A stretch of DNA of 22,438 nt, taken from positions 1-22,438 of the IMG/VR virus record IMGVR_UViG_3300027752_000124. One strand, given 5' to 3'. Shown here one piece after another: positions 265 through 12,927 of the stretch. Both the position numbers and the translations under genes were made by a program. The DNA is from a virus. Under the pieces are notes generated by a model. It made no database searches. It saw only the letters and a list, made by a program, of their open reading frames with translations, and was not told where the DNA came from. Position 1 is the first letter of the stretch; each line of letters starts with the position of its first letter.

Positions 265-2103
265 TTAATTGTTTATTAATGGGTTAACCTTTAATGCTTT
301 GTTAGCTTCTTTTGACCAATAATCATTTGACTCTTTACTTATCTCAATAGACTTTATAAAAGCCTCTCTTTTATCGGCGTTTGAATCTCCGCTGTACAAT
401 TGGTTAGCAAAAGTATCTAACTCTTCCTTACTATTAAGATCTATTGACCTAGCTGTTCTATCCATTGTAAAAGTACCATTACTCCTTGCACCTTTACCTG
501 TTTCATGAATAAAATTTAACTTACCATCAACTATTTCAGCACTTTCAACTTTACCATAACCCGCTATATTTACATTTTTTAAAGCGCTGTTTGGATTATT
601 TAAGATACTAAAACCTTTATCAGCTGCTGATTTTACAGCCTTACTAGCGTTTTTAAGAGACGCGTTATACTTGGCTAAACTTATTTGCTCACTTACAGAA
701 GCGTCTCCGCTACTTGCTTTTTTAATTGTTTTTAGATTTTGTGTAAAATAAATATCATCACCTATTTCTATCTCTTTTCCATCAGCCTCGTACTGAGCTA
801 CATCTTTTGGTGTAGCTTTTCTACTTTGAAGAAGATTGTTTTTAGACACGCCCATAATGTTTCTCATGTCTCTCTCAGCTAAAGTTTTTGTTATGAGTTC
901 TTTCTTAGGATCGTCTGCCATCTCTGCCCAGGCTGCTTTGTCTATATTTCCCCAACCTAAGTTGTTAGCCATATATTTCATTTGCTGATCTAGCGGAAAA
1001 TGAATTATTTTCTCGGCATCAGCCATATGAATATCCTGATAAGCTTTATTTGTTGTTAAAGATTTTTTATCGAAGTGAGTTTCAGTAGCTTCAACAGTAT
1101 TTCCACTATCATCGAATGAGGTTCGCTTAATTTTTTCTGTTACAAAACCAAGGCCAGTTTCTTTATGCGTTTTAGGATCTAAGAAACCAGCTCCAGTTAA
1201 ACCAGAGTTTGCATCAGATGCTGGAGGTATTTTAACTATTAAGCCAAGACCTTCTTCTCCTAGCTCATTAAGGTTTCTTTCATATTTAGAAATTAAATAA
1301 CCCGTTGGATTTCCTTGCTCATCTAGCTCTTCTTCAAATTGCTGAGTAAGATTTCCTTTTTCTTCGCTTCCGTTAGTAGTTAAGCCATTATTTAGCCAGC
1401 TTTTATATATGTCACTTTCTTTATCTATTCTACTATTTATAGTTAAAGTATTATCGTATTTTCCAGTTTCTTCGTTAAGGTTTCTGCCATATACTTTTTC
1501 ACTTTCAACACCTTTTAAAGGTTGATTATTAACAGACATTGCTGCTATTAAATTGGCGGTACCTTCACCTCCTTCTCCTTGGATGTCATAATCTTTAGAT
1601 ATGAAACCTGGTTGATCAGGTTTTAGCTCCTGATTGTTAACCGTTACGTTAGCAGCAACTCCACCCATAAAATCCATATGTTGGTTATAACCACTTATAA
1701 TCTTTATATAAGCTTCTCTTGTATCCTTGTCTATGTTAGGATCACTATTTAAAAGAGCTTGAGCTTTGATAGCTCCCATGGTATAGTCTTTACCATTAAC
1801 TTTGACAGTGTTTCCAGCACCAGTTGTAGCCATTTCGCGAATGCTTTCTCCAACCTGCTCGTTCATTGACTTGTCCTTAAGAGTAGCAACGAATTTGTTT
1901 ATTCTTTCGTTTTCTTTTAACTCGCTTATATTTAACGCAAGCTGGTTAGATTCTCTTCTCTTGTTAGCAGCTTCTTGCCCTTTGGCTTGAGCAGCAGCGA
2001 AAGTATCTATACCTTTTGCTATGTTAGCTCCAAAACCTGCTATGGCTTTACCCCAGATGTCTCCAGAGTTGTCTATTATTATTTGTGGATTCCTATAACT
2101 CAT
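265..2103 (-). CDS. Probable internal virion (ejection/cargo) protein, 612 aa
   Basis: A 612-residue protein with no clear enzymatic motif. The N-terminus (MSYRNPQIIIDNSGDIWGKA) leads into a glycine- and alanine-containing helix near residues 20-45, then a charged helical stretch to about residue 90. The middle is rich in N, G, E and K with alternating polar and hydrophobic segments, and the last 120 residues are again helical and lysine-rich. There is no signal peptide. It lies 28 bases after the -1-extended end of the alanine-rich internal protein and abuts the next gene (TAAATG). In podoviruses, genes just after the tail-tube and nozzle genes usually encode proteins packed in the capsid and ejected with the DNA, so I infer an internal virion role. 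The leader (AAAAAATAAAAC before ATG) is A-rich without a Shine-Dalgarno. Confidence 0.7.
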   Translation of the reverse strand: MSYRNPQIIIDNSGDIWGKAIAGFGANIAKGIDTFAAAQAKGQEAANKRRESNQLALNISELKENERINKFVATLKDKSMNEQVGESIREMATTGAGNTVKVNGKDYTMGAIKAQALLNSDPNIDKDTREAYIKIISGYNQHMDFMGGVAANVTVNNQELKPDQPGFISKDYDIQGEGGEGTANLIAAMSVNNQPLKGVESEKVYGRNLNEETGKYDNTLTINSRIDKESDIYKSWLNNGLTTNGSEEKGNLTQQFEEELDEQGNPTGYLISKYERNLNELGEEGLGLIVKIPPASDANSGLTGAGFLDPKTHKETGLGFVTEKIKRTSFDDSGNTVEATETHFDKKSLTTNKAYQDIHMADAEKIIHFPLDQQMKYMANNLGWGNIDKAAWAEMADDPKKELITKTLAERDMRNIMGVSKNNLLQSRKATPKDVAQYEADGKEIEIGDDIYFTQNLKTIKKASSGDASVSEQISLAKYNASLKNASKAVKSAADKGFSILNNPNSALKNVNIAGYGKVESAEIVDGKLNFIHETGKGARSNGTFTMDRTARSIDLNSKEELDTFANQLYSGDSNADKREAFIKSIEISKESNDYWSKEANKALKVNPLINN

Positions 2104-2131: not shown

Positions 2132-2235
2132 TTACACATTGAAGCCGCTACCTTGAAATGCATTATCACCCATTGTTGAGAAATCAGGCATTACCATTTT
2201 CCCTACAGTTTCACCAGTTGTAGCTGGAGCTACTT
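2132..2235 (-). other. Candidate -1 frame extension (33 codons) of the internal virion protein
   Basis: Reading in the -1 frame from the last G of the AAG codon (2233), the sequence stays open for 33 codons to TAA at 2134-2132. The added tail begins VAPATTGETVGKM and ends FQGSGFNV, a normal polar, gene-like composition. It shortens the unexplained gap before the 612-aa gene from 126 to 28 bases, matching spacing elsewhere in the window. The full product would be 276 aa. The simplest alternative is a one-base indel in the sequence or a recent frameshift mutation. Independent initiation at an internal ATG would give only about 21 residues and is less likely. Confidence 0.6.
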
Positions 2236-2961
2236 TCCCGGAATTTTAGGTGCCCCTATAACAGATGAAGCTATTCCACCTACTGCACTCATCATACCTC
2301 CAATAGCCGAAGCTTTAGCTTGATTAGCTGAAGCCTCTGCCTGGGCAGCTTGCGCAACCTTTCCTGAAGCCATATCAAGATCGGCATTAGTTCTATTTTC
2401 TTGTGCCTGAAATTCAAATTGTTTACCAGCAGCATCAGCCGACTGTACTCTTTGACCTTCTGATATAGCAATGCCTTGAAGTCTTTGTTGTTCAGACATC
2501 TTCTGTTGGTTAAGCTGTTGCTCTCCTTGAGCTTTTAGTTTCTCATTTTGAGCTTCTTGACTCTCTATAGAAGATGCAATACCTTTTTTACTTTGTAAAG
2601 CCGCTTGAGCTAAAGCCGTAGCTCCACCTGCACTTGCACCTGTAGCTCTTAATGTATCCAAAGTGTTTGCTAAAGCAATATCGCTTTGTTCCATTTGAAT
2701 CTCAGCTGCTTGAGTAGCAACACCTAGTTGAGCGAAAGGATTGTTTAAGTTACCACTTAAATCCTTAGCCATACTAGATAAGTCCTTTGTACCGGCATAA
2801 GGGTTTATTATAGATTGCCTAGAAGCCTTTATACTATTAACCTCTGCTTGAGCTGCTGCTTTAGCATTTCTTGCATTTCTTGCATTTTTACTAGCCCCTG
2901 CTGCTCCAATCAAACCCCCACCTATTGATACCGCCGCTCCTATTGCTGCTGCTACTGCCAT
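2230..2961 (-). CDS. Alanine/glutamine-rich internal virion protein, 243 aa in the zero frame
   Basis: The protein begins with a small-residue hydrophobic segment (residues about 1-24, A/G/I-rich) that could insert in or fuse with membranes. A long Ala/Gln/Glu/Lys-rich helical or coiled-coil region follows (about 25-220), and a second Gly/Ala/Met/Val-rich hydrophobic segment comes near residues 220-237. Hydrophobic ends around a polar helical core fit podovirus ejection proteins, with T7 gp14 as a functional parallel rather than a demonstrated homolog. The zero-frame stop TAG (2232-2230) directly follows the heptamer G GGA AAG. A -1 shift there would give a 276-aa product ending at 2132, recorded separately. 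The gene follows the GNAT-like gene with almost no gap and precedes the 612-aa gene. Confidence 0.8.
   Translation of the reverse strand: MAVAAAIGAAVSIGGGLIGAAGASKNARNARNAKAAAQAEVNSIKASRQSIINPYAGTKDLSSMAKDLSGNLNNPFAQLGVATQAAEIQMEQSDIALANTLDTLRATGASAGGATALAQAALQSKKGIASSIESQEAQNEKLKAQGEQQLNQQKMSEQQRLQGIAISEGQRVQSADAAGKQFEFQAQENRTNADLDMASGKVAQAAQAEASANQAKASAIGGMMSAVGGIASSVIGAPKIPGK
2233..2239 (-). promoter_or_regulatory. Slippery heptamer G GGA AAG for -1 ribosomal frameshifting
   Basis: The heptamer is in the correct X XXY YYZ phase (codons CCG GGA AAG TAG), with the zero-frame stop directly after it. The same heptamer directs the -1 frameshift between the tail genes G and T of phage lambda. 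An AGGGG purine run ends 13 bases upstream (2257-2253). Downstream, CCAG/CTGG and CTACA/TGTAG interleave in an H-type pseudoknot layout at 2227-2203, starting five bases after the heptamer. The heptamer phase is certain; its use by ribosomes is inferred. Confidence 0.6.
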
Positions 2962-2962
2962 A

Positions 2963-3367
2963 TTATTTTATTTTTTTAATTATCTCGTACGATGGATCGT
3001 GATCCACGGTGTACCCTAGTTTTTTATGTTTGTCTATAAGGCTTTTACTTCTACCTATACTTAGAATAACTTCAAAACCACCTTCTACCGCCCATTCTTC
3101 TAATGAGGATATTAGTAGTTCTATAGCTTCTGATTTATTTCTTTCTTCTGGATTACCTACAATCCACTCCATCCACGCTATTTTTGAATTTGTACCATAT
3201 AGAAAACCAGCTACAATAGGATTACCATCTCTTTCGATCATAATACCACCTGTACCGTTTTCTGGTAATAAATTTCTAGCTAATGGCACCCAGTCTGGCC
3301 AAGATTCCCACCACTTTACAATAGTTTCGTAGTCATCATGTTGTAGTCTTCTTTTACTTAATTCCAT
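2963..3367 (-). CDS. GNAT-like acetyltransferase-fold protein, 134 aa
   Basis: The pattern suggests a GNAT fold. A helix-rich start (KRRLQHDDYETIVKWWESW) leads to strands around GGIMIERDGNPIVAGFLYG, a central strand with IAWMEWIVGNPE, a helix (EAIELLISSLEEWAVEGG), then a strand and the typical late motif SLIDKHKKLGYTV. The usual acetyl-CoA pyrophosphate loop (R/Q-x-x-G-x-G/A) is degenerate here (PEERNKSEA), so activity is doubtful. I chose ATG at 3367: the longer frame starting at 3415 would overlap the upstream 469-aa gene by 38 bases, while 3367 leaves a 10-base gap after an A/T-rich leader. GNAT-like proteins occur near internal virion protein genes in some T7-type phages (T7 gp13 has been likened to this fold), so a structural or assembly role is possible. 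Confidence 0.7.
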   Translation of the reverse strand: MELSKRRLQHDDYETIVKWWESWPDWVPLARNLLPENGTGGIMIERDGNPIVAGFLYGTNSKIAWMEWIVGNPEERNKSEAIELLISSLEEWAVEGGFEVILSIGRSKSLIDKHKKLGYTVDHDPSYEIIKKIK

Positions 3368-3377
3368 TTGATTATAT

Positions 3378-4787
3378 TTAGTATGCTGATTCAACGTAGT
3401 CTGAAGATACCGCAAACAATTCCATTGGCTCTGTTCTGCTTATTGTATCTGACTTTATAGTCACAGTAGCAACATAACCTTTTACACCTGTCATTGAATT
3501 TCCAAAAACTATTTCTCCTTGAGTAGCAGGGCTAGCGTTGACTAAGTTAGCTACATACTTACCTTCCTTCCTGTCGAAGCCAGCATAATATGTATAACCA
3601 AAGTCTCCAGTATATGCTCCTTGCGTATAACTTAATACAGGTGATATAGTATCTCTTAATTCAAAAGACCTGTTAGAATTAAACGTTGGTACTTCCCACC
3701 CGTTAGATCCTTCATAGTTAACTGTTTTGAACACCTTAGACATACTAGGTGAAGGGTTGAATACAAATTGTATAGATGAATCATACTGCACTCCATAGAA
3801 ATTATTTCTAGGTTGAGTAGAGTCATAATGCTTATATAACTTGCCGTCTTTAAACGTGTAGTAGTTACTCTGAACACTAAACACTTGATCTGGTTGGTAG
3901 GAGAATAAACTAGGGAAACCTAATACAGCTTCATCAAAAGATAAAGTTGCTGATTTAGGATCTGGATTAGGCTGTGGGTCCGCGGCTACAGTTTGTTTAC
4001 TTTGCTGCAAAGACAATACGTATTGCTTAGTGTATATATCAAAACCTCCAATTGCTTTACCTTTACCGTATATGCCATCTAAGATACCAAACTGATCTCT
4101 AAAGTAATCAGTCATACCATTATTAGATATTTCCGTTATACCGTCCATAGATAGTCTTAAAACAGAATTTCTATTCTTATCGGTGAAGTACTTTCTATAA
4201 CCATAAGCTGCAAAGCTTTCTGGGTTTTTGCTTATACCAAACTCTCCTGCATAAGGCTGTATCGCACCTATAACTAAATTAGAAGAAGTAACCGTACCCC
4301 CACCTTCCGCAGAGTATATAGCGTCTTTATCTATTAAAGCTCTGCTTATTTTAGATTCTTGAAATATAACTAAGTTAGTGTCTTCAGCATATAGCTTCTG
4401 TATAGAACCATTAGCAGGGTCAACCGCTTTAGTTATGTCTTCTCCAACAGAAAATACATTTGTATTATTTACACCTGTTCTAGAGTTGTATATACCAGAG
4501 TATATCATGGCATTAATCCTAAAAGAAGCATTAGGATTGTCTTCAACTAAGTAAGCTTTAACTCCGTAGTCTATATTTGTGTTGTTATAACCACCTCTAA
4601 TTCTAGCTTCTTCTATAGCCCAGCTACTACCATCTTCTGAAGGTGTCACGCCGGTAATTGGGGTAGATCCAGAAACCCCAGAAGGTACACCAAAAGAACC
4701 GTTCCAAACAGGCGCGTCTGGTGCAGTGTCTACAGTCTTTTTCAAAAGAAAAGAGTTAAAGTAACTTACTTCTATTATTGCTCCCAT
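3378..4787 (-). CDS. Tail nozzle (muzzle/stabilization-type) protein, C-terminal part as separate gene, 469 aa
   Basis: A beta-rich 469-residue protein with many short strands, aromatic residues and turns, compatible with a beta-propeller. Notable stretches are IRGGYNNTNIDYGVKAYLVE (about 63-82), VDPANGSIQKLYAEDTNLVI (about 122-141), SKISRALIDKDAIYSAEGG, ISKNPESFAAYGYRKYFTDK and FYTFKDGKLYKHYD-like segments. These resemble, from memory, conserved stretches of the large tail stabilization/muzzle protein of crAss-like and marine podophages. Those stretches normally follow regions present at the end of the conserved part of the upstream 1578-aa protein. The gene begins 31 bases after that protein stops. 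I therefore read the pair as two parts of one nozzle complex, either an ancestral split or always two subunits. Confidence 0.65.
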   Translation of the reverse strand: MGAIIEVSYFNSFLLKKTVDTAPDAPVWNGSFGVPSGVSGSTPITGVTPSEDGSSWAIEEARIRGGYNNTNIDYGVKAYLVEDNPNASFRINAMIYSGIYNSRTGVNNTNVFSVGEDITKAVDPANGSIQKLYAEDTNLVIFQESKISRALIDKDAIYSAEGGGTVTSSNLVIGAIQPYAGEFGISKNPESFAAYGYRKYFTDKNRNSVLRLSMDGITEISNNGMTDYFRDQFGILDGIYGKGKAIGGFDIYTKQYVLSLQQSKQTVAADPQPNPDPKSATLSFDEAVLGFPSLFSYQPDQVFSVQSNYYTFKDGKLYKHYDSTQPRNNFYGVQYDSSIQFVFNPSPSMSKVFKTVNYEGSNGWEVPTFNSNRSFELRDTISPVLSYTQGAYTGDFGYTYYAGFDRKEGKYVANLVNASPATQGEIVFGNSMTGVKGYVATVTIKSDTISRTEPMELFAVSSDYVESAY

Positions 4788-4818: not shown

Positions 4819-7800
4819 TTAAATCAAACACCCTATAGAAAATGTGGTTCTAAGCCCAGCCGTATTAAATGTAGCTAAATGCTGACCGTTATCGTACCCT
4901 TCTTGATTAACCGCATCTATTCTAAACTTACGAACAACCTGTGAAGCAAAAGTAGCTTTAGTTGTCATTGCTATGTCAGTGTAGAGTTGAGTTACATATT
5001 TAGCTATAAATTCTCTAGCATAAAAAGTACCTTCGGTATAGGTACTGGCGCAAATGGCGTCAACATTGTTTAGTGACACCTTATAAGTATAACCCCCTGA
5101 TCCACTAGGTCCTCCATAGCTAGCATCACCCATTTGTATTGTTTGTGTTGTGCCGTTGCTTTGATTGTTGTTGGGTGTGCAATAACTTGGAGGGTATAAA
5201 GGATTAGGGGTTGGATCCCAGCCAGTGCCTGTATCATCCCACATATTACCAAGTGTTATTCTATATTCACCATCAGTCTTCCCGTCTTGGCTTCCGTTAA
5301 AAGCAAATATTCTAGAACCATAAGTCGAGTAAATGTAGCCCGCCGTTACTTGATATTGATAATTTGGTGCGGTATACCCGGGTATTTGCGAGCTTTCCAT
5401 TTGGTAGCTTCCCCCATATTGAGGTGGAAGACCAAATGTGGCAGATGGCACAAACCTAGCAGGTCCTTGAGTTCCATTCGCATCTAGTATTGTTTGACCA
5501 AAACTTGCTATTTGACCATTTATGTCTTTTGCTGGTCGCCAAGCGGTTACATTAGCCGATATGCTTCTCCATTCAACAGAGGCAGATGTACGTGATGTTT
5601 CTGATGGCAGTGGGTAGGGATAACCCTGCCATGGTGTAGTAGTATATGAGCTTGATTCAATCTTTACATAAAAAATAGCATTATCACTTCCTTTAATCCA
5701 ATCTCCTACACGTTCTCTAGTCCATTTAAAATTATCGGCTAGAGCTTTAGGTGGATCCGGGCAAACATAACCTGTTGTAGGATTAACTCCGCTAGGAAAG
5801 GCTGGATCGGTGGGCGTTGTGCCAGAATCGTCACTCTGCCGATATCCCGCATCTAAAACATGGGGATTGGCATTTAGCCCATAAAATCCATTCCAATAAC
5901 TGTAGTCAGGGTCCGTGAAGTAATAAGTTATCATGGCACCATTGCTACCACCCGACCCCGCAGGATTTGTAGTAGGTATTATAAACTGAGTAGGCACTGG
6001 CCCATTTCCAAAAGTAATAGTTATGGTAGCTTGAACAGTATTACCTCCGGCATCCGTAAGTTTAACAACTAAAGTATAAAGACCAGAAGCACCGTTATAT
6101 TGAGTTGCTAATACACCAGAATTAGAATTTAAAGTAAAAATACCATTAGGATAAGTTGCATTAGTAACATTGCCGCTAACGATTGACCAAACAAGGTTCA
6201 ACCGCTCTTGCCCTCCTAAAACGTTAGCTCCATTTAAACCTTCTAAAGTAACTATAGTACCTGTTGTTCCAATTGCCTTGGATATGTTTTGATTACCCAA
6301 TGGAATAGATGGAGCTATATTAGCAAGGCTACCTGTTGTTGATAGATACCTTGGAGCGCTTGGTGTTGTTGGGTCAGTGGTATCAATTATTTTAAAATTA
6401 AATATATAAGATTCGTTAGCATTAGCGTTAGGACCAAAGTATTGATAAGCAGCTGTGTTAAGATCATAAGATTCAAATCCGCTCCCTGGATCACCAAGAC
6501 TTACTAAAATCCACTCGCCAGTTCTGTCGTTGCCGGTCGTGTCTTCAACACTTTCAAGAGTAAGCGTTGAATTAGTTATACCTACGCCAGCTACATCTAA
6601 AGGATAGAAGCTGCCAGCAACGGTTGTTCCTAAAGACATGCCTTCGTTTTGGGCAAATATAAAACCATTAAAACCAAAAGCCCCTCCAATATCTTCAGCT
6701 ACAGCTAAGTTTAATTCTGATATTAATCCACTTGTCGATGTTTCAAAATAGAAATCTAATCTTGAAAGATCAGGTTCAGTTTCGAATATAGTTAAGTTTT
6801 TTATAGCAGCATATGTGGCGCTAGTACCACTGCCAATAGGTGTATTCACTAGTCCAAACTCTCGAGTTGTAGTTATTTGAGCTATTAATGGATCTGACTC
6901 TTTCTTATAGAAAGGAAAGTATGCACTTTTAGGATCTGTTACAGAGATAGGGGTGGTATGGCTGTTAATTAGCTCATCTACATCGAAAATACTACGTAAG
7001 TCTTCAATGGAAGAGGTTGTATTTGTTGTTCTTCCAGGGTAAAATTGTTGATTACCTACAGCTACTGTTTCGTACTCTGTATTTTCTACCCTACCTATTA
7101 ACCTAACCGATGATCTAAATTGCTTTTGTAGTGGACCTACTTCAGACAAATCTCTAGGAACTTTATTTATATTATCATTTACTAATGAAATATATGAAGT
7201 GTTTAAATTTTTAGTAACATCTGTAGGAGAACCTTTCATAGCTCCTGCATTGTACACATTGTAGTAATCTTGTTCTTTTTGTTGAACTACTATTTTATAG
7301 GAATACCAACCTAAAGGATTATACAAAGGACTAGTTATGTCGTTATTATACAAACCAGGAACCCCAGTAAGCAAGTTTCTATTACTAATTATAGTATCAT
7401 TAAATAACACTTTTAAAGAATCACCAGCCCATACAGCAGGAGGAGTGTTTGCTTCTGTTTGATAAGAAGAAAACACAGTTGAAGAGCCAAAGCCCATACT
7501 TGACAAAGGACTATCATTGTTAGAAAGTATAGTAGATGATTGTCTTCCAAATTTATCAGATAACACTATACCTACTTGGTAGTTTCTATTTTGTTTAACT
7601 GTTGAGCTTGGGTATTCTACGACTACTTTACTACTGAAAGGATCATCCTTAGCGTATTTTTCAGATACAGATACTTGGTAGTTTATAAAGTCAGGTGGAG
7701 TATGTTTATCTTGGAAGTTTCCATAAACAACTCTATTGCTTATAACTTCTTGAGAAAAAGCTCTAACTGGAATCTTATCATAAACTCTTATTAACTCTTT

Positions 7801-9555
7801 AGAAGGAAGTGTCTTAAAAGGCTTAGTAGACTCATAAACATATTCGTATATATTATTGTCACCAGTAGCAGCACTAAAAGCAAGGTTGATTGGTATTGTT
7901 TCTACCACTTGAACAGCTAAGCCATCAGACTCCTTGTATAATATATCAATAGCGGTTATTTTAAAAGGAGATGTATTAGATTGTAAATCAGAGCCGCTAG
8001 AAGGTAAAGGTACTTGAAGGTTTATCCTTGTAACTTTGTTTTCCATAAACTGCACTACTGTGCTGGAAAAAGTTTGTTTTTCGTCGTCGTTTATAAAGTA
8101 ACCATCTTGCTTTGGAATGAAACACGGCTGTGTAAAAGGCGCAAATATAGAATATTCACCATCATCAAACTTAAATCTATAGCTAAATCTAACGAACTTA
8201 TCTTCTAAGAAGTCAGGATCACCACCAAAGGTAGAGTCATAGTATGGGTTTAAAGTTCCGAAAGTTAACACAACGTTGTCTCTAAGATTTTGACCAACAC
8301 TTACTTCAAGAGTAGAAGTTGAAGCTGTGTAGTTTACAACTGTTGTACCTGCCGCAACACCTGCTCCAGATACCGTATCCCCTGCTGTAATAACGCCAGC
8401 GACATTGTCTATATTAAAAGTAGAGAGGTTTACAATGCTTTGAGATGTAAGAGCCGAACCACCATTTGGTAATGTAGAGGTAGATGCGTCATACATTGAA
8501 GTTTCTAATCCAACAAACTCAACAGTATCGTTGATGCTTAAATCTTGAACTTTGTTAACGGTTATATTGTTACCGTCTATACTTTCTACTACAGTACCTG
8601 TCTTAACACCTGTTCCAGTAACACCATTACCCACACTTATATCGGTAGAGTCAAACACCACAAGTACTTTTGTACTAGAAGCTGTTGTTAAATACGTAGA
8701 CCTTACTAAGGCACCTGCTTGAGCACTGGCTTTAATCACTCTAATACACTCGTATGGATTGTATTTAGCTACTGATATTTGATCTTCACTTACATAGTAA
8801 GTTGGAGCTATACTGTTAGCTACTGGATTAGCAAGGCTTACATTTATTTTTCTGGGTTGGTTTCTATTGTCGGTGAAGAATAATAGCTCCTCTAAGAGGT
8901 TTACACCTATTATCGGGCTAGTTGTTGAGAAGTTTAAGAAAGCTCCTCTAACAAGCACTCTAGTGTCTAGAGTACCTAAGTTATGTACAAATATAAAGTT
9001 TTTAGCGTTAGGACTATAAACTATATCGTTAGAGCTAGAAGTGTCTGTGTAGTTTGTAAAGAAAGAGTATACATTGTTTTTAAAGTCGTCAACAAAAAAA
9101 CCAATACATTTTAAACTACTTATAGATGTAACGGTTAAAGTAGCATTTCCAGCCCCTCCATTAATAGTTATCACATCTCCAACTGAATACCCATAACCAA
9201 CAGAAGCTAAACTGTAAGTAGTTATTTGCCCTCCATTTTCAGCTTCAATATTTACTAAAACGCCGGACCCTCCTGAAGGAGAAACCGTAGTGGTTACGTT
9301 ACTAGCTATAGAATAACCTTGACCACCGTCGAGGTTGGCTCCTACAACCTCACCGCCAGCTGAAACTATAGTTCCAAAATCTGTTTTTACATTAAATGAA
9401 TTTCCTAGTACGTTTTCTAAAGCCCCAACGTCTGAAGCCTCCGATTTACTCACTTGAACATTTAAAGCATCTCGGTATTCCCCACTAGGTATTAATCGAT
9501 CATCAAGATCTTTATTCATCTTGGATTTAATGAATGCGTTTTTAACTTCAGCCAT
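4819..9555 (-). CDS. Large tail nozzle/adhesin protein, 1578 aa
   Basis: This is the largest gene. The N-terminus (KMNKDLDDRLIPSGEYRDAL and a following ALENVLGN) matches the opening of large stabilization/muzzle proteins of crAss-like and related podophages. Residues about 65-150 are Gly/Ser/Val-rich with a YSVGDVITINGGAGNATLTV-type repeat. Residues about 292-430 hold two similar beta repeats with the pattern G-x-G-V-x-x-G-T-x-V. Residues about 600-1000 look like propeller or tail-tip sequence with VVYGNFQDKHTPPDF and TEPDLSRLDFYFETSTSGLI. Residues about 1075-1185 look cadherin-like, including GIFTLNSNSGVL and LYTLVVKLTDAGGNT. Residues about 1200-1500 are Gly/Pro/Tyr/Trp-rich and differ in base composition, suggesting a surface or receptor-contact domain. 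There is no signal peptide. It starts 5 bases after the B2 gene. Confidence 0.75.
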   Translation of the reverse strand: MAEVKNAFIKSKMNKDLDDRLIPSGEYRDALNVQVSKSEASDVGALENVLGNSFNVKTDFGTIVSAGGEVVGANLDGGQGYSIASNVTTTVSPSGGSGVLVNIEAENGGQITTYSLASVGYGYSVGDVITINGGAGNATLTVTSISSLKCIGFFVDDFKNNVYSFFTNYTDTSSSNDIVYSPNAKNFIFVHNLGTLDTRVLVRGAFLNFSTTSPIIGVNLLEELLFFTDNRNQPRKINVSLANPVANSIAPTYYVSEDQISVAKYNPYECIRVIKASAQAGALVRSTYLTTASSTKVLVVFDSTDISVGNGVTGTGVKTGTVVESIDGNNITVNKVQDLSINDTVEFVGLETSMYDASTSTLPNGGSALTSQSIVNLSTFNIDNVAGVITAGDTVSGAGVAAGTTVVNYTASTSTLEVSVGQNLRDNVVLTFGTLNPYYDSTFGGDPDFLEDKFVRFSYRFKFDDGEYSIFAPFTQPCFIPKQDGYFINDDEKQTFSSTVVQFMENKVTRINLQVPLPSSGSDLQSNTSPFKITAIDILYKESDGLAVQVVETIPINLAFSAATGDNNIYEYVYESTKPFKTLPSKELIRVYDKIPVRAFSQEVISNRVVYGNFQDKHTPPDFINYQVSVSEKYAKDDPFSSKVVVEYPSSTVKQNRNYQVGIVLSDKFGRQSSTILSNNDSPLSSMGFGSSTVFSSYQTEANTPPAVWAGDSLKVLFNDTIISNRNLLTGVPGLYNNDITSPLYNPLGWYSYKIVVQQKEQDYYNVYNAGAMKGSPTDVTKNLNTSYISLVNDNINKVPRDLSEVGPLQKQFRSSVRLIGRVENTEYETVAVGNQQFYPGRTTNTTSSIEDLRSIFDVDELINSHTTPISVTDPKSAYFPFYKKESDPLIAQITTTREFGLVNTPIGSGTSATYAAIKNLTIFETEPDLSRLDFYFETSTSGLISELNLAVAEDIGGAFGFNGFIFAQNEGMSLGTTVAGSFYPLDVAGVGITNSTLTLESVEDTTGNDRTGEWILVSLGDPGSGFESYDLNTAAYQYFGPNANANESYIFNFKIIDTTDPTTPSAPRYLSTTGSLANIAPSIPLGNQNISKAIGTTGTIVTLEGLNGANVLGGQERLNLVWSIVSGNVTNATYPNGIFTLNSNSGVLATQYNGASGLYTLVVKLTDAGGNTVQATITITFGNGPVPTQFIIPTTNPAGSGGSNGAMITYYFTDPDYSYWNGFYGLNANPHVLDAGYRQSDDSGTTPTDPAFPSGVNPTTGYVCPDPPKALADNFKWTRERVGDWIKGSDNAIFYVKIESSSYTTTPWQGYPYPLPSETSRTSASVEWRSISANVTAWRPAKDINGQIASFGQTILDANGTQGPARFVPSATFGLPPQYGGSYQMESSQIPGYTAPNYQYQVTAGYIYSTYGSRIFAFNGSQDGKTDGEYRITLGNMWDDTGTGWDPTPNPLYPPSYCTPNNNQSNGTTQTIQMGDASYGGPSGSGGYTYKVSLNNVDAICASTYTEGTFYAREFIAKYVTQLYTDIAMTTKATFASQVVRKFRIDAVNQEGYDNGQHLATFNTAGLRTTFSIGCLI

Positions 9556-9560
9556 TTAAT

Positions 9561-10781
9561 TTATGATTTTATCCATTTAGATTTACCTCTCATTACTTGA
9601 ACTATCTGATCAAGCTTAACATTAGATAATCTTATTTTAGCATTTCTAAGCTTAGCGCTTTTTTCTTGTCTTAGTCTATTGACTACGTACTCAGGTTGGT
9701 TTATTCTTGAAGCAATAACTGCATGACTAATATAAGCATATACAGCATCTTCAGCCATTTTAGGAACATTAGTGTCTAAGTCATAAGCTAATCCATCTGA
9801 TATGTACTCTAATATAATTAACTCACCAGCTAGATTGCTTGAAAAAGACATCTTACCTTCTCTGTGGTTTATAGTAAACCAACCATTTGATTGAGAGTAT
9901 TGTGGATCCATTCCGTAACGCTGACCGTACCCCATAGCTCTTTGTTCCCATAAAGGAGAGTCAAATTGATCGTTAAATAACCGTGGAGTTAGATTACCAT
10001 CTATTAAATTGTCATCTGCCGCAGCCCATCTAGCTTCTGTTATCGATGTTCCTTCTAGGTTTTCACCAAAATTATCCTGAGTAGGTACTCCAGAGCTGTC
10101 TTGTAAAGGCATCGTTCCAGGATTTATAGTTAAGTTGTTTGCTGGGTATATAGGTCTTTTAACACCCATAGAATCCACCCAAGAAGCTTTTACATAGTTA
10201 ACATAGTCTTGAGGTATAACAACGCTAAGACTAGGTGGTATGTTTAATTCTTGAGACTTAGTGCTTTGTAGAGTATCATAACTGAACTCCTGCATAGCTC
10301 TTTTTGCGTGGAAAATTATATCTGTTCTTTTTGCTGTAGGAATAAGTTTATCATCTCCAACGTAAGCAACCATGAAGTTATTTATTAATTCGTCAAGCTT
10401 GATATAAGCATAGCTATTATAGTTATCTTCAACAGCAACACCAACAGCATCTCTGTTTCCATAGTTACCACCGTCTAGCTTTTTAAGTTGAACAACAATA
10501 CTAACATACTGATTAAAGTCTTCAGTTATAGTTATTGTATTTCCACTTACAAAGTAAGGTAATATATACTCAGTATATGTGAATACTCCTGGAAGTGCAG
10601 AATATATTTTAAAGTTATTTAAAGCGTAATTTGTATCTGTAGGGCTCCAGGCGGTACCACCTCCAAAAACCAAATCCGTGTCAAAAGTAGTTGTAAACTT
10701 CTGATCAGGACCGTCATTAGGTACTAAAAATTTCTGAGAACCTGCATAGTACTGTTCATTAGTTTCTGTTATAAGTCCCAT
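9561..10781 (-). CDS. Ring/connector-type protein B2, 406 aa, with extra N-terminal domain
   Basis: Residues about 1-130 form a beta-rich domain (YYAGSQKFLVPNDGPDQKF, then EYILPYFVSGNTITIT and KKLDGGNYGNRDA). Residues about 132-406 are paralogous to the whole 197-aa protein B1: LDELINNFMVAYVGDDKLIP, FHAKRAMQEFSYDTLQ and PQDYVNYVKASWVD in B2 pair with LNDIINNFIISYTGPGKLIP, FHARRCLQEFAYETLK and PEDFVSTVSVVVNG in B1, and the C-terminal MAEDAVYAYISHAVIASR pairs with LAEEALYACIVYAILANR. B2 also has about 75 extra residues between the middle and last blocks. Its place between capsid and nozzle genes points to a neck or tail-tube ring. It follows A2 by three bases. The exact ring assignment is unknown. 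Confidence 0.7.
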   Translation of the reverse strand: MGLITETNEQYYAGSQKFLVPNDGPDQKFTTTFDTDLVFGGGTAWSPTDTNYALNNFKIYSALPGVFTYTEYILPYFVSGNTITITEDFNQYVSIVVQLKKLDGGNYGNRDAVGVAVEDNYNSYAYIKLDELINNFMVAYVGDDKLIPTAKRTDIIFHAKRAMQEFSYDTLQSTKSQELNIPPSLSVVIPQDYVNYVKASWVDSMGVKRPIYPANNLTINPGTMPLQDSSGVPTQDNFGENLEGTSITEARWAAADDNLIDGNLTPRLFNDQFDSPLWEQRAMGYGQRYGMDPQYSQSNGWFTINHREGKMSFSSNLAGELIILEYISDGLAYDLDTNVPKMAEDAVYAYISHAVIASRINQPEYVVNRLRQEKSAKLRNAKIRLSNVKLDQIVQVMRGKSKWIKS

Positions 10782-10784
10782 TTA

Positions 10785-11585
10785 TTAGCTTTTTTTATTT
10801 ATTTCTTCTTGTTGTATTTGTTGAGATGCTACTTGTACTATCTGAGGATCTCTTATAACTATACCAGCATAAAGTAATATCTTTAATATAACATTTGTTT
10901 GCTCCGTCGAAGAAAGCTCGAAGTTTACTGAACCTTGTCCAGGTTGACTATTAAATACATAGCTTTGACCAATACCAGTGGCGAAAGCCCATTGAATATC
11001 TAAAGGCTTTCTTAAGAAATCTACAGTCACAGTGCCATCAGCTAGAGCTGGGCTTACAAAAAGTTTGTTATTTTCGTACAAGTATACTGGGTTGTAAATA
11101 GAAGCAACTGTCAAGTCTGACTTTTGTAAGTTATAAAATTCTGCTCTACCTAGCCTTTGTAGCTCTGTTGGCAAAACCACTGGTGTTTGTAATATAGGCT
11201 TATACGTTACCGTTCCTAATTTATAGAAAGCAATCTGGTTACCAGTTACTGGAGCTAGCTGGTTATAAGCAACTGCTCTACTGTATAAGTCAACTACAGG
11301 TAAGTCCCAATAGGGATTACCAAGATCAGTACTATTAAGAGTCGCTGCTCCTGTTGTTTTAAAAGGAGATATCTTTTCGTCTAAAGCCATCTGCCTGTCA
11401 GCGTAATCTACATCAGATTGTGGTACACGTAGTTGTTGGTTTAAATCTTCAAAGTATTGCTCAAATATATCTAGCTGAACCTGTGTACCTATTCTATTGA
11501 ATTCAGGTGGCGTCATGTAGCCACGCTGTTCCTTGTTAAGTATCAACAAAACAGTCTTATATACTGTGTCTACGTTTATTGCCAT
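10785..11585 (-). CDS. Ring/connector-type protein A2, 266 aa (paralog of A1)
   Basis: The N-terminal third is plainly paralogous to the 243-aa gene two positions upstream: VYKTVLLILNKEQRGYMTP here against VYKTVLVILEQEKRGVLTP there, then QYFEDLNQQLRVPQSDVDYA against SYFDELNQLLRMPQTSLAYA, then LDEKISPF against LDEKISLF. The middle is beta-rich (LGTVTYKPILQTPVVLPTEL; YLYENNKLFVSPA), and the C-terminus is helical and glutamine-rich (VASQQIQQEEINKKS), again as in A1. The sequence resembles tail-tube/adaptor proteins of crAss-like phages by position and size. It sits between B1 and B2, 12 bases after B1 stops. Start at 11585 is supported by alignment of the first residues with A1 and by an A-rich leader. 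Confidence 0.7.
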   Translation of the reverse strand: MAINVDTVYKTVLLILNKEQRGYMTPPEFNRIGTQVQLDIFEQYFEDLNQQLRVPQSDVDYADRQMALDEKISPFKTTGAATLNSTDLGNPYWDLPVVDLYSRAVAYNQLAPVTGNQIAFYKLGTVTYKPILQTPVVLPTELQRLGRAEFYNLQKSDLTVASIYNPVYLYENNKLFVSPALADGTVTVDFLRKPLDIQWAFATGIGQSYVFNSQPGQGSVNFELSSTEQTNVILKILLYAGIVIRDPQIVQVASQQIQQEEINKKS

Positions 11586-11597
11586 TTATTTCTTTTT

Positions 11598-12191
11598 TTA
11601 AGAAGAAAAATTAGTAAAAATCAATCTAGATTTAGATCTTTCTAGTTTATCTATTTTTTCAATTAGTAATCTTTGTAAAACCCCTGGGTTTGTATTCTCT
11701 CTATTTGCTAGTATTGCATAAACTATACAAGCATATAAAGCCTCTTCTGCTAGTTTTGGAATAGCTGCACTCTCGTCAGTGGTTAAAGCGTTTGATAAAT
11801 ACTTTAAATCAAAATTTGCTTGACCTTGATTAGCTGCACTAAAGTACATAACTTTAGTAACATAGTTTATTGCGAATTTATTCACTTGTTGACCACTACT
11901 GCTATTGTATTCAATCTGAGTGAACGTAACCCCATTTACAACCACAGATACAGTACTTACAAAATCTTCAGGTAGAGCAAAAGTAGCTGGTAAATTATCT
12001 AGTTGTACTAAAAACTGACTTTTTAAGGTTTCATATGCAAATTCTTGTAGGCATCGTCTAGCGTGAAAAACTACTTCAGTCCTATTTGAATCAGGGATTA
12101 ATTTACCAGGTCCAGTGTAAGAGATTATAAAGTTATTTATTATATCATTAAGAGATATAAAAGCGTTTGTTAAAGCAATTGTGTCTGTCAT
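11598..12191 (-). CDS. Ring/connector-type protein B1, 197 aa (short paralog of B2)
   Basis: A helical N-terminal half (FHARRCLQEFAYETLKSQF near residues 47-65), a beta-rich middle (FALPEDFVSTVSVVVNG; FAINYVTKVMYFSAANQGQ) and a helical C-terminus (KLAEEALYACIVYAILANRE; KIDKLERSKSRL). The order and motifs match residues 132-406 of B2, but B1 lacks the N-terminal domain and the roughly 75-residue insert. Such small proteins next to adaptors commonly serve as head-completion or tail-ring subunits in podoviruses, with P22 gp4 a functional parallel only. The leader AAAAATAAAAAC before ATG is A-rich with no Shine-Dalgarno. It starts four bases after the A1 stop. Confidence 0.7.
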   Translation of the reverse strand: MTDTIALTNAFISLNDIINNFIISYTGPGKLIPDSNRTEVVFHARRCLQEFAYETLKSQFLVQLDNLPATFALPEDFVSTVSVVVNGVTFTQIEYNSSSGQQVNKFAINYVTKVMYFSAANQGQANFDLKYLSNALTTDESAAIPKLAEEALYACIVYAILANRENTNPGVLQRLLIEKIDKLERSKSRLIFTNFSS

Positions 12192-12195
12192 GTTT

Positions 12196-12927
12196 TTATT
12201 TTTGAGAGTCCGCGTTTATTTGTTGTTCTTTCTGAGAGCTTAAAGACATAGCGAATTGATCTTTAGCCATAACACCTGCATAGCCTAATATCTTATCAAT
12301 AAGTAAAGGTTGATCTGATTCATGTAGTTCAAAGTCTGTAGAATCAAAAGTATTGTATATATAGTTTCCAAGTTCTGGGTCTATAGTAAATCCCCACTTA
12401 GGATCTGAAGGGAATTTTAAATAGTTTAACTGTACAGTCCCAGTAAGAGACGAAGGATACAAACTAATAACTTTATTTTCATAAGTATATACAGGATAGA
12501 ACGCAGTCGGCGCTGTCAACGGAGATTGATTAGTTGTATATATATCTTGCTGTTGTATTCTTTGAACCTCTCTACCAATAACGGTTGGAGATACCGGTTG
12601 CGATGGAGTAAGTTGGTTAAAATAAATAACAGAACCAAGCTCTTGAACAGAAGCCGTTGGGGTTACTGCTGAAGTTGCTATAGATAACTGCTCGGTCTTT
12701 TTAAATAAAGATATTTTTTCATCTAATAATGCCATTCTATCAGCGTAAGCTAATGAAGTCTGAGGCATTCTCAGCAACTGATTTAACTCATCAAAATAAG
12801 ATGTAAATACTTCTTGTTGAGACTGCGTAGCAATCTTTCCAAATTCTGTCGGCGTTAAGACACCTCTTTTTTCTTGTTCTAGAATAACCAGGACAGTCTT
12901 GTACACTTTGTCTATATCTATAGCCAT
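12196..12927 (-). CDS. Ring/connector-type protein A1, 243 aa
   Basis: First gene of the duplicated A-B cassette. It starts MAIDIDKVYKTVLVILEQEK, shared almost block for block with A2. Following helices (FGKIATQSQQEVFTSYFDEL) and the LLRMPQTSLAYADRMALLDE segment are conserved between the two. The middle is beta-rich (YPVYTYENKVISLYPSSLTG parallels YNPVYLYENNKLFVSPALAD of A2), and the C-terminal end is Gln/Ser-rich (SLSSQKEQQINADSQK). No membrane segment is seen. Genes in this position usually encode the portal-proximal ring or adaptor. A hairpin-bearing 66-base gap separates it from the upstream 273-aa gene, so it may begin a separately controlled or processed transcript segment. Confidence 0.7.
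   Translation of the reverse strand: MAIDIDKVYKTVLVILEQEKRGVLTPTEFGKIATQSQQEVFTSYFDELNQLLRMPQTSLAYADRMALLDEKISLFKKTEQLSIATSAVTPTASVQELGSVIYFNQLTPSQPVSPTVIGREVQRIQQQDIYTTNQSPLTAPTAFYPVYTYENKVISLYPSSLTGTVQLNYLKFPSDPKWGFTIDPELGNYIYNTFDSTDFELHESDQPLLIDKILGYAGVMAKDQFAMSLSSQKEQQINADSQK

Follow-up and report, generated by a model that had tools for sequence, protein, structure and literature searches.

The lambda G/GT tail-chaperone shift uses the heptamer G GGA AAG. The minor -1 product of this system has its N-terminus in common with the main product (PMC5009743). Phage virion proteins extended by frameshifting have also been described, among them those of T7/T3 gene 10, Lactobacillus phage A2 and Listeria phages such as PSA, in which the tail-shaft site directly precedes a stop codon (PMC5009743), and the capsid frameshift of Privateer takes place at GGGAAAG (PMC7881722). 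For genes 39/40 of Alteromonas virus vB_AspP-H4/4, one of which encodes an internal virion protein, a putative -1 slippery sequence was reported (PMC5658483). In crAss001, the genes after that of the muzzle protein gp44 encode the cargo proteins gp45 and gp46, which are thought to form a channel for DNA entry (PMC10172136); the paper describing this structure makes no mention of a frameshift. In the open-access literature we found no internal or ejected phage protein with a C-terminal tail added by frameshifting, and no programmed frameshift in phages of Bacteroidota.

We have analyzed a stretch of viral DNA of 22,438 nucleotides (IMG/VR record IMGVR_UViG_3300027752_000124, positions 1 to 22,438; the whole stretch is hereafter called the window). 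A preliminary description of it had proposed that a gene for an internal virion protein ends in a programmed -1 ribosomal frameshift. The persistence of the site in homologs, purifying selection on the tail and a positioned 3' hairpin supported this proposal and, as judged from these sequence comparisons, a programmed shift at this gene end is very probable.

Slip site, stop codon and -1 extension

The zero-frame ORF finished with CCG GGA AAG TAG, and positions 2239-2230 of the minus strand read GGGAAAGTAG (Table 1). These letters agreed with the preliminary description, which had placed the heptamer in phase with the stop codon adjoining it. Its remaining figures were reproduced as well, namely a -1 frame open for 33 codons as far as the TAA at 2132 (2134-2132), two isoforms of 243 and 276 amino acids, and a gap to the ATG of the next gene (at 2103) reduced from 126 nt after the zero-frame stop to 28 nt after the -1 stop. 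The peptide spanning the junction of the fused product would be ...KIPGKVAPATTGETVGK.

Table 1. Features at and around the putative frameshift site (positions in the window).
Feature	Position	Strand	Remarks
Next gene (612 aa), for another putative cargo/ejection-type protein	265..2103	-	Synteny with phi38:1 gp100
-1 extension VAPATTGETVGKMVMPDFSTMGDNAFQGSGFNV, 33 codons plus TAA (GTA at 2233 to TAA at 2134-2132), predicted 276-aa isoform	2132..2233	-	
TGTAG, pairing with loop CTACA (2223-2219); candidate small H-type pseudoknot	2203..2207	-	L002 sequence identical there
Stem-loop CCAG-CTACAA-CTGG, 5 nt 3' of the heptamer; -3.2 kcal/mol (weak alone)	2214..2227	-	Predicted stimulator; identical in L002
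Zero-frame stop TAG, directly 3' of the heptamer	2230..2232	-	Opens the 5-nt spacer TAGCT (2232-2228)
Zero-frame ORF, 243 aa (short isoform); helical internal virion protein rich in Ala and Gln	2230..2961	-	Family alignment, all-helical model
Slippery heptamer G GGA AAG, in X XXY YYZ phase for a -1 slip	2233..2239	-	Same place in homologs
GNAT-like small protein (phrog_17252), upstream	2963..3415	-	Slot conserved in cultured relatives
Muzzle-like tail structural protein (phrog_14478)	4819..9555	-	Second related piece at 3378-4787

Gene neighbourhood and identity of the protein

The window derives from a marine crAss-like podovirus of Bacteroidota, of the flavophage type. Its genes followed the order terminase, portal, scaffold-like protein, major capsid protein, two tandem pairs of ring/tail proteins and muzzle-like genes, after which came the GNAT-like protein, the frameshift gene and the 612-aa protein. 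The same order was found in Cellulophaga phi38:1 (Pervagoviridae), the Flavobacterium elemo phages and Maribacter phage Panino. A tandem two-gene duplication was noted at 9561-12927 (minus strand), in which 12927-12196 was a paralog of 11585-10785 (38% identity) and 12191-11598 a paralog of 10781-9561, a duplicated layout like that of the crAss ring/tail-hub proteins.

When the profile of the family was compared by hhalign with the proteins occupying the same slot in the cultured phages (phi38:1 gp099, elemo gp20 and Panino CDS0072), a probability of 95.7% was obtained (E 1e-8); gp099 of phi38:1, a syntenic distant homolog, is annotated as structural. The AlphaFold2 model of the 243-aa protein (m3db95bb62860) was all-helical, with a mean pLDDT of 75.7 and a pTM of 0.43, and its only significant match in BFVD, a library of viral structures, was an 'Internal virion protein' (E 6e-4). 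Fold and sequence searches of the PDB with the protein gave nothing significant, and no match was obtained by tblastn either with the protein against phage records or with the fused protein against plasmids. The N-terminus carried a hydrophobic Ala/Gly segment. The preliminary description had considered the protein internal and probably ejected. This view fits the synteny, the best structural match and distant homology to a structural protein of cultured phages; these same lines of evidence, together with the gene position shared with the crAss001 cargo proteins, suggest an ejection-type internal virion protein, ejection itself being deduced from them.

Occurrence of the slip site and tail among homologs

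From six scans of viral contigs and a further scan of genome contigs, we collected 221 distinct homologous genes whose 3' end was complete. In 28 of them, the window included, an in-phase heptamer lay 0-2 codons before the stop and was followed by a -1 tail of 15-38 codons, so that heptamer, stop and tail, whose retention in homologs the preliminary description had put forward as a check, are kept in independent homologs. The heptamer was G GGA AAG/AAC/AAT/AAA in 22 genes, A AAA AAG in four and T TTG GGG in two; as compared with these 22 gene ends carrying G GGA AAN, six GGGAAAN were present among the internal heptamers listed, over 52,926 codons. Five apparent variants of the device were left out of the 28, owing to a noncanonical slip site, a cut frame or a possible indel (L335, L369, L370, L237, and L245).

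The full signal was counted in 1,847 distinct ORFs of the homologous loci, and was defined as an in-phase heptamer no more than 2 codons from the stop, an extension of at least 12 codons and a hairpin of -2 kcal/mol or lower located 4-7 nt downstream. It was present in 19 of 216 family genes vs. 1 of 1,631 other ORFs. The signal seen in the window is far beyond chance.

Some of the homologs deserve separate mention. The tail of L335 was homologous to that of L005, and its junction read GCT TTT TAG; here the stop codon would occupy the A site while a slip on U UUU UAG may take place in the P site. In L370, GGGGGAAAGTAG was intact and the tail conserved, but an in-frame TGA occurred a few codons 5' of them; this phage may read TGA as sense, or else the gene is mutated. 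Homologs L276-L285 were found on MAG contigs labelled Bacteroidetes, Flavobacteriaceae, Saprospiraceae, and Crocinitomicaceae, and also Aliivibrio, Ilumatobacteraceae, and Woesearchaeota; these are probably binned phage contigs.

If the gene were really a single frame of 276 codons, disrupted by a recent frameshift mutation or by a mistake in sequencing or assembly, one contig would have the same appearance. An instance of this type may be L245, which differed from L244 in a poly-A run (A9 vs. A10) and lacked the hairpin, as a result of an indel, a sequencing error or slippage. For the window, however, such an origin is extremely improbable: heptamer, stop and -1 tail occurred in 27 other contigs from different samples, one of them (L277) a MAG contig from outside IMG/VR, and errors do not explain a hairpin at a fixed spacing. 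A homolog carrying the window tail in one continuous frame, which the preliminary description had named as evidence against a shift, was not found in the collection scanned.

Coding and constraint in the tails

The sequences of the 28 tails diverged widely, yet they recurred in families. Gly, Thr, Ser, Asn, and Pro were abundant in them, and a short motif of hydrophobic or aromatic residues, for example LADTFKVTNPLF or YKPNDTVGFYSSLF, often formed their end. The homolog L002, 79% identical to the window protein over the matched body, carried the tail VVPATTGKTVDEFEMPDFSKMGDNAFQG, as compared to VAPATTGETVGKMVMPDFSTMGDNAFQG in the window, with a pN/pS of 0.48 in the -1 frame. Over 11 tail pairs the pN/pS in this frame was 0.42, and changes at the three codon positions numbered 85/63/134. 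Values as low as 0.14 (L005/L335) and 0.16 (L342/L343) contrasted with the weak constraint of some other pairs (0.82 for L274/L266, and 1.44 for L306/L361, in which changes were few). As read from these substitution patterns, purifying selection acts on the tails in the -1 frame, with the largely synonymous change that the preliminary description had suggested looking for.

Searches with the tails returned little outside the family. A pattern search with the tail motif MGDNAFQG retrieved L002 and three out-of-frame chance matches, and a comparison of the tails with all ORFs of the loci gave L244, the in-frame twin of L245, and a weak match to L247 inside the family. Two short and weak tail matches in other genes (E 0.005) were taken as chance, as was the one short match of a nucleotide search with L293.

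Alternatively, the downstream frame could be a small gene of its own, with a start codon within the tail and no fusion. Two in-frame ATGs were indeed present in the window tail (in the region of codons 13-17) and one at a similar place in L002. Most tails, however, had no ATG at a common place, the conserved elements were located at the junction, and fewer than 20 codons would be left for such a gene; we regard this possibility as highly improbable.

The -1 stop was mostly 10-18 nt from the next ATG, with a median of 14 nt, as compared with 13 nt in untailed homologs and 108 nt from the zero-frame stop. Such proximity would also be expected if the shift were real but served the next gene, by bringing termination near its start for re-initiation, the tail peptide itself being unimportant. 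This is unlikely, given that the amino acids of the tail are under purifying selection and that untailed homologs show the same gap without any shift. The latter rather indicated that the tail is fitted into the normal intergenic gap.

Downstream hairpin

The preliminary description contained neither the stem-loop nor the homolog family, both of which were found here. In the window alone the stem comprised 4 bp and the local fold was no better than that of shuffled sequences, and the evidence for a stimulator therefore sits at the level of the family. A hairpin, mostly GC-rich, starting about 4-7 nt past the heptamer was present in 20 of the 28 genes, for instance GCCCTC-ggcg-GAGGGC in L011, GGGCC-ggaaata-GGCCC in L202, and GGCCC-ggcg-GGGCC in L261; a clear hairpin was missing in 8 of the 28. 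The mean energy of the best hairpin at offset 4-7 was -4.35 kcal/mol in 32 shifted genes vs. -0.44 kcal/mol (sd 0.23) in shuffles, and the peak was confined to this offset, whereas the same energy scan gave essentially no hairpin signal in the 177 homologs without shift. Recoding the tails of the 28 genes synonymously resulted in a considerable loss of structure (-4.55 kcal/mol in the real sequences vs. -1.26 kcal/mol, sd 0.35, after recoding), and hairpins of -2 kcal/mol or lower, present in 20/28 real genes, averaged 7.1 in the recoded sets and never exceeded 14.

In four genes (L009, L266, L274, and L292) the stop was one codon further on and the distance between hairpin and heptamer was unchanged. 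The spacing therefore tracks the heptamer when the stop moves, which is the behaviour expected of a frameshift stimulator. At family level, the hairpin is a candidate for the 3' stimulatory structure that in bacterial -1 frameshifting is expected 5-9 nt downstream. An upstream Shine-Dalgarno stimulator, which is an optional feature, was not enriched, SD-like sequences occurring in 6/33 shifted genes and 27/135 controls. The likely Bacteroidota hosts make little use of Shine-Dalgarno sequences.

Turnover of the C-terminus

In the wide set, the C-terminus was bare in 135 genes, carried an in-frame peptide in 44 and an S74-type domain in 9, and was shifted in 33. The C-terminal state changed at least 22 times on the tree of the 221 genes. 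Neither tail nor heptamer was found in L001, the nearest homolog of the window in the tree (83% identical over the match), or in L252, 91% identical to the shifted L261; this indicated that the phages can dispense with the tail or replace it. Modules are exchanged at the C-terminus.

The in-frame S74-type module (endosialidase chaperone-like) was observed in L033, L018, L145, L241, L060, L248, L330, L353, and L402, with an E-value of 2e-4 for PF13884 in L033, just below the Pfam cut-off. A module of this type is odd on an internal protein. Past the stop of L010 at 4651, the -1 frame encoded INKIDVEFKRIS, resembling the end of the S74-type module (KIDVQFKQI in L033), and this out-of-frame stretch is apparently a relic of a lost module.

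The turnover at this gene end, the remnant in L010 and the loss of the tail in the close relatives L001 and L252 would all be in keeping with a shift that is real but neutral or a relic, in which a decaying in-frame C-terminal module is kept alive by slippage and is heading for loss. This interpretation is nevertheless rather unlikely, since the hairpin exceeds what synonymous recoding predicts and the amino acids of the tail are constrained. Both features argue instead for selection on the shift itself in many lineages.

Proposed mechanism and function

According to the programmed -1 shift that we favour, most ribosomes would read GGA AAG TAG and terminate, giving rise to the 243-aa protein. 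A minority, with tRNAs on GGA and AAG, would encounter the small hairpin or pseudoknot that begins 5 nt further on, the stop codon being the next to be read; the two tRNAs would re-pair on GGG AAA, and 33 more codons would be translated in the -1 frame, yielding the 276-aa isoform. The hairpin would favour slippage, and termination at the neighbouring stop, if slow, may contribute. We infer that slippage does occur and that both isoforms enter the particle.

The likeliest role of the tail, proposed tentatively by analogy with lambda gpGT, which links two partners, would be that of a docking peptide tethered to a sub-stoichiometric share of the subunits. On a broader scale, it is conceivable, although we would put it somewhat below an even chance, that marine crAss-like phages of a widespread group use the shift to equip a constant minority of the copies of a channel-forming ejection protein with an exchangeable docking tail, the tail having been repeatedly gained, lost or hard-wired. 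If this were true, recoding would act on the genome-delivery machinery, and no programmed frameshift would have been shown before for an ejection protein of a phage.

Gene callers stop at the zero-frame TAG, and the tail has therefore likely been missed in such genomes. The cassette of heptamer, 5-nt spacer and hairpin adds a well-supported case for phages of Bacteroidota, and a family with natural untailed, in-frame-tailed and shifted-tail versions provides a comparison for addressing why only some copies are extended.

Comparison with known systems

The window protein resembles the ejected internal proteins gp45 and gp46 of crAss001 and gp14 of T7 in the position of its gene after the muzzle gene, its helical nature and its hydrophobic N-terminal segment; no sequence match or significant fold match to these three proteins was found. 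In common with lambda G/GT and many of its siphophage counterparts, the window presents G GGA AAG near the 3' end of the gene. The products differ: those of lambda are assembly chaperones absent from the virion and the window gene belongs to a family of internal virion proteins, and GT contributes a folded partner domain whereas the tail in the window has around 30 residues. The location is also different, because siphophage G/GT lies between the major tail protein and the tape measure, to which its product binds, and the gene order here is of the podovirus type, with no tape measure. In vB_AspP-H4/4 the genes linked by the shift are those of an endolysin and of the internal protein, whereas in the window the internal protein's own C-terminus is extended.

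T7/T3 gene 10A/10B, the phiEco32-like phages and Privateer are similar to the window in that the shift occurs at the end of a virion-protein gene and produces a minor isoform extended at its C-terminus. The preliminary description had regarded a shift in an internal, probably ejected protein rather than in a tail chaperone as an unusual use of the mechanism. Shifts outside the tail-chaperone setting are already known from T7/T3, PSA and Privateer, and what is unusual is therefore the type of protein. In T7/T3, the phiEco32-like phages, Privateer and PSA (the latter by a +1 shift) the extended products are major capsid or tail proteins, in contrast with the internal, ejection-type protein of a crAss-like phage described here, and a frameshifted extension on a protein of this type looks new.
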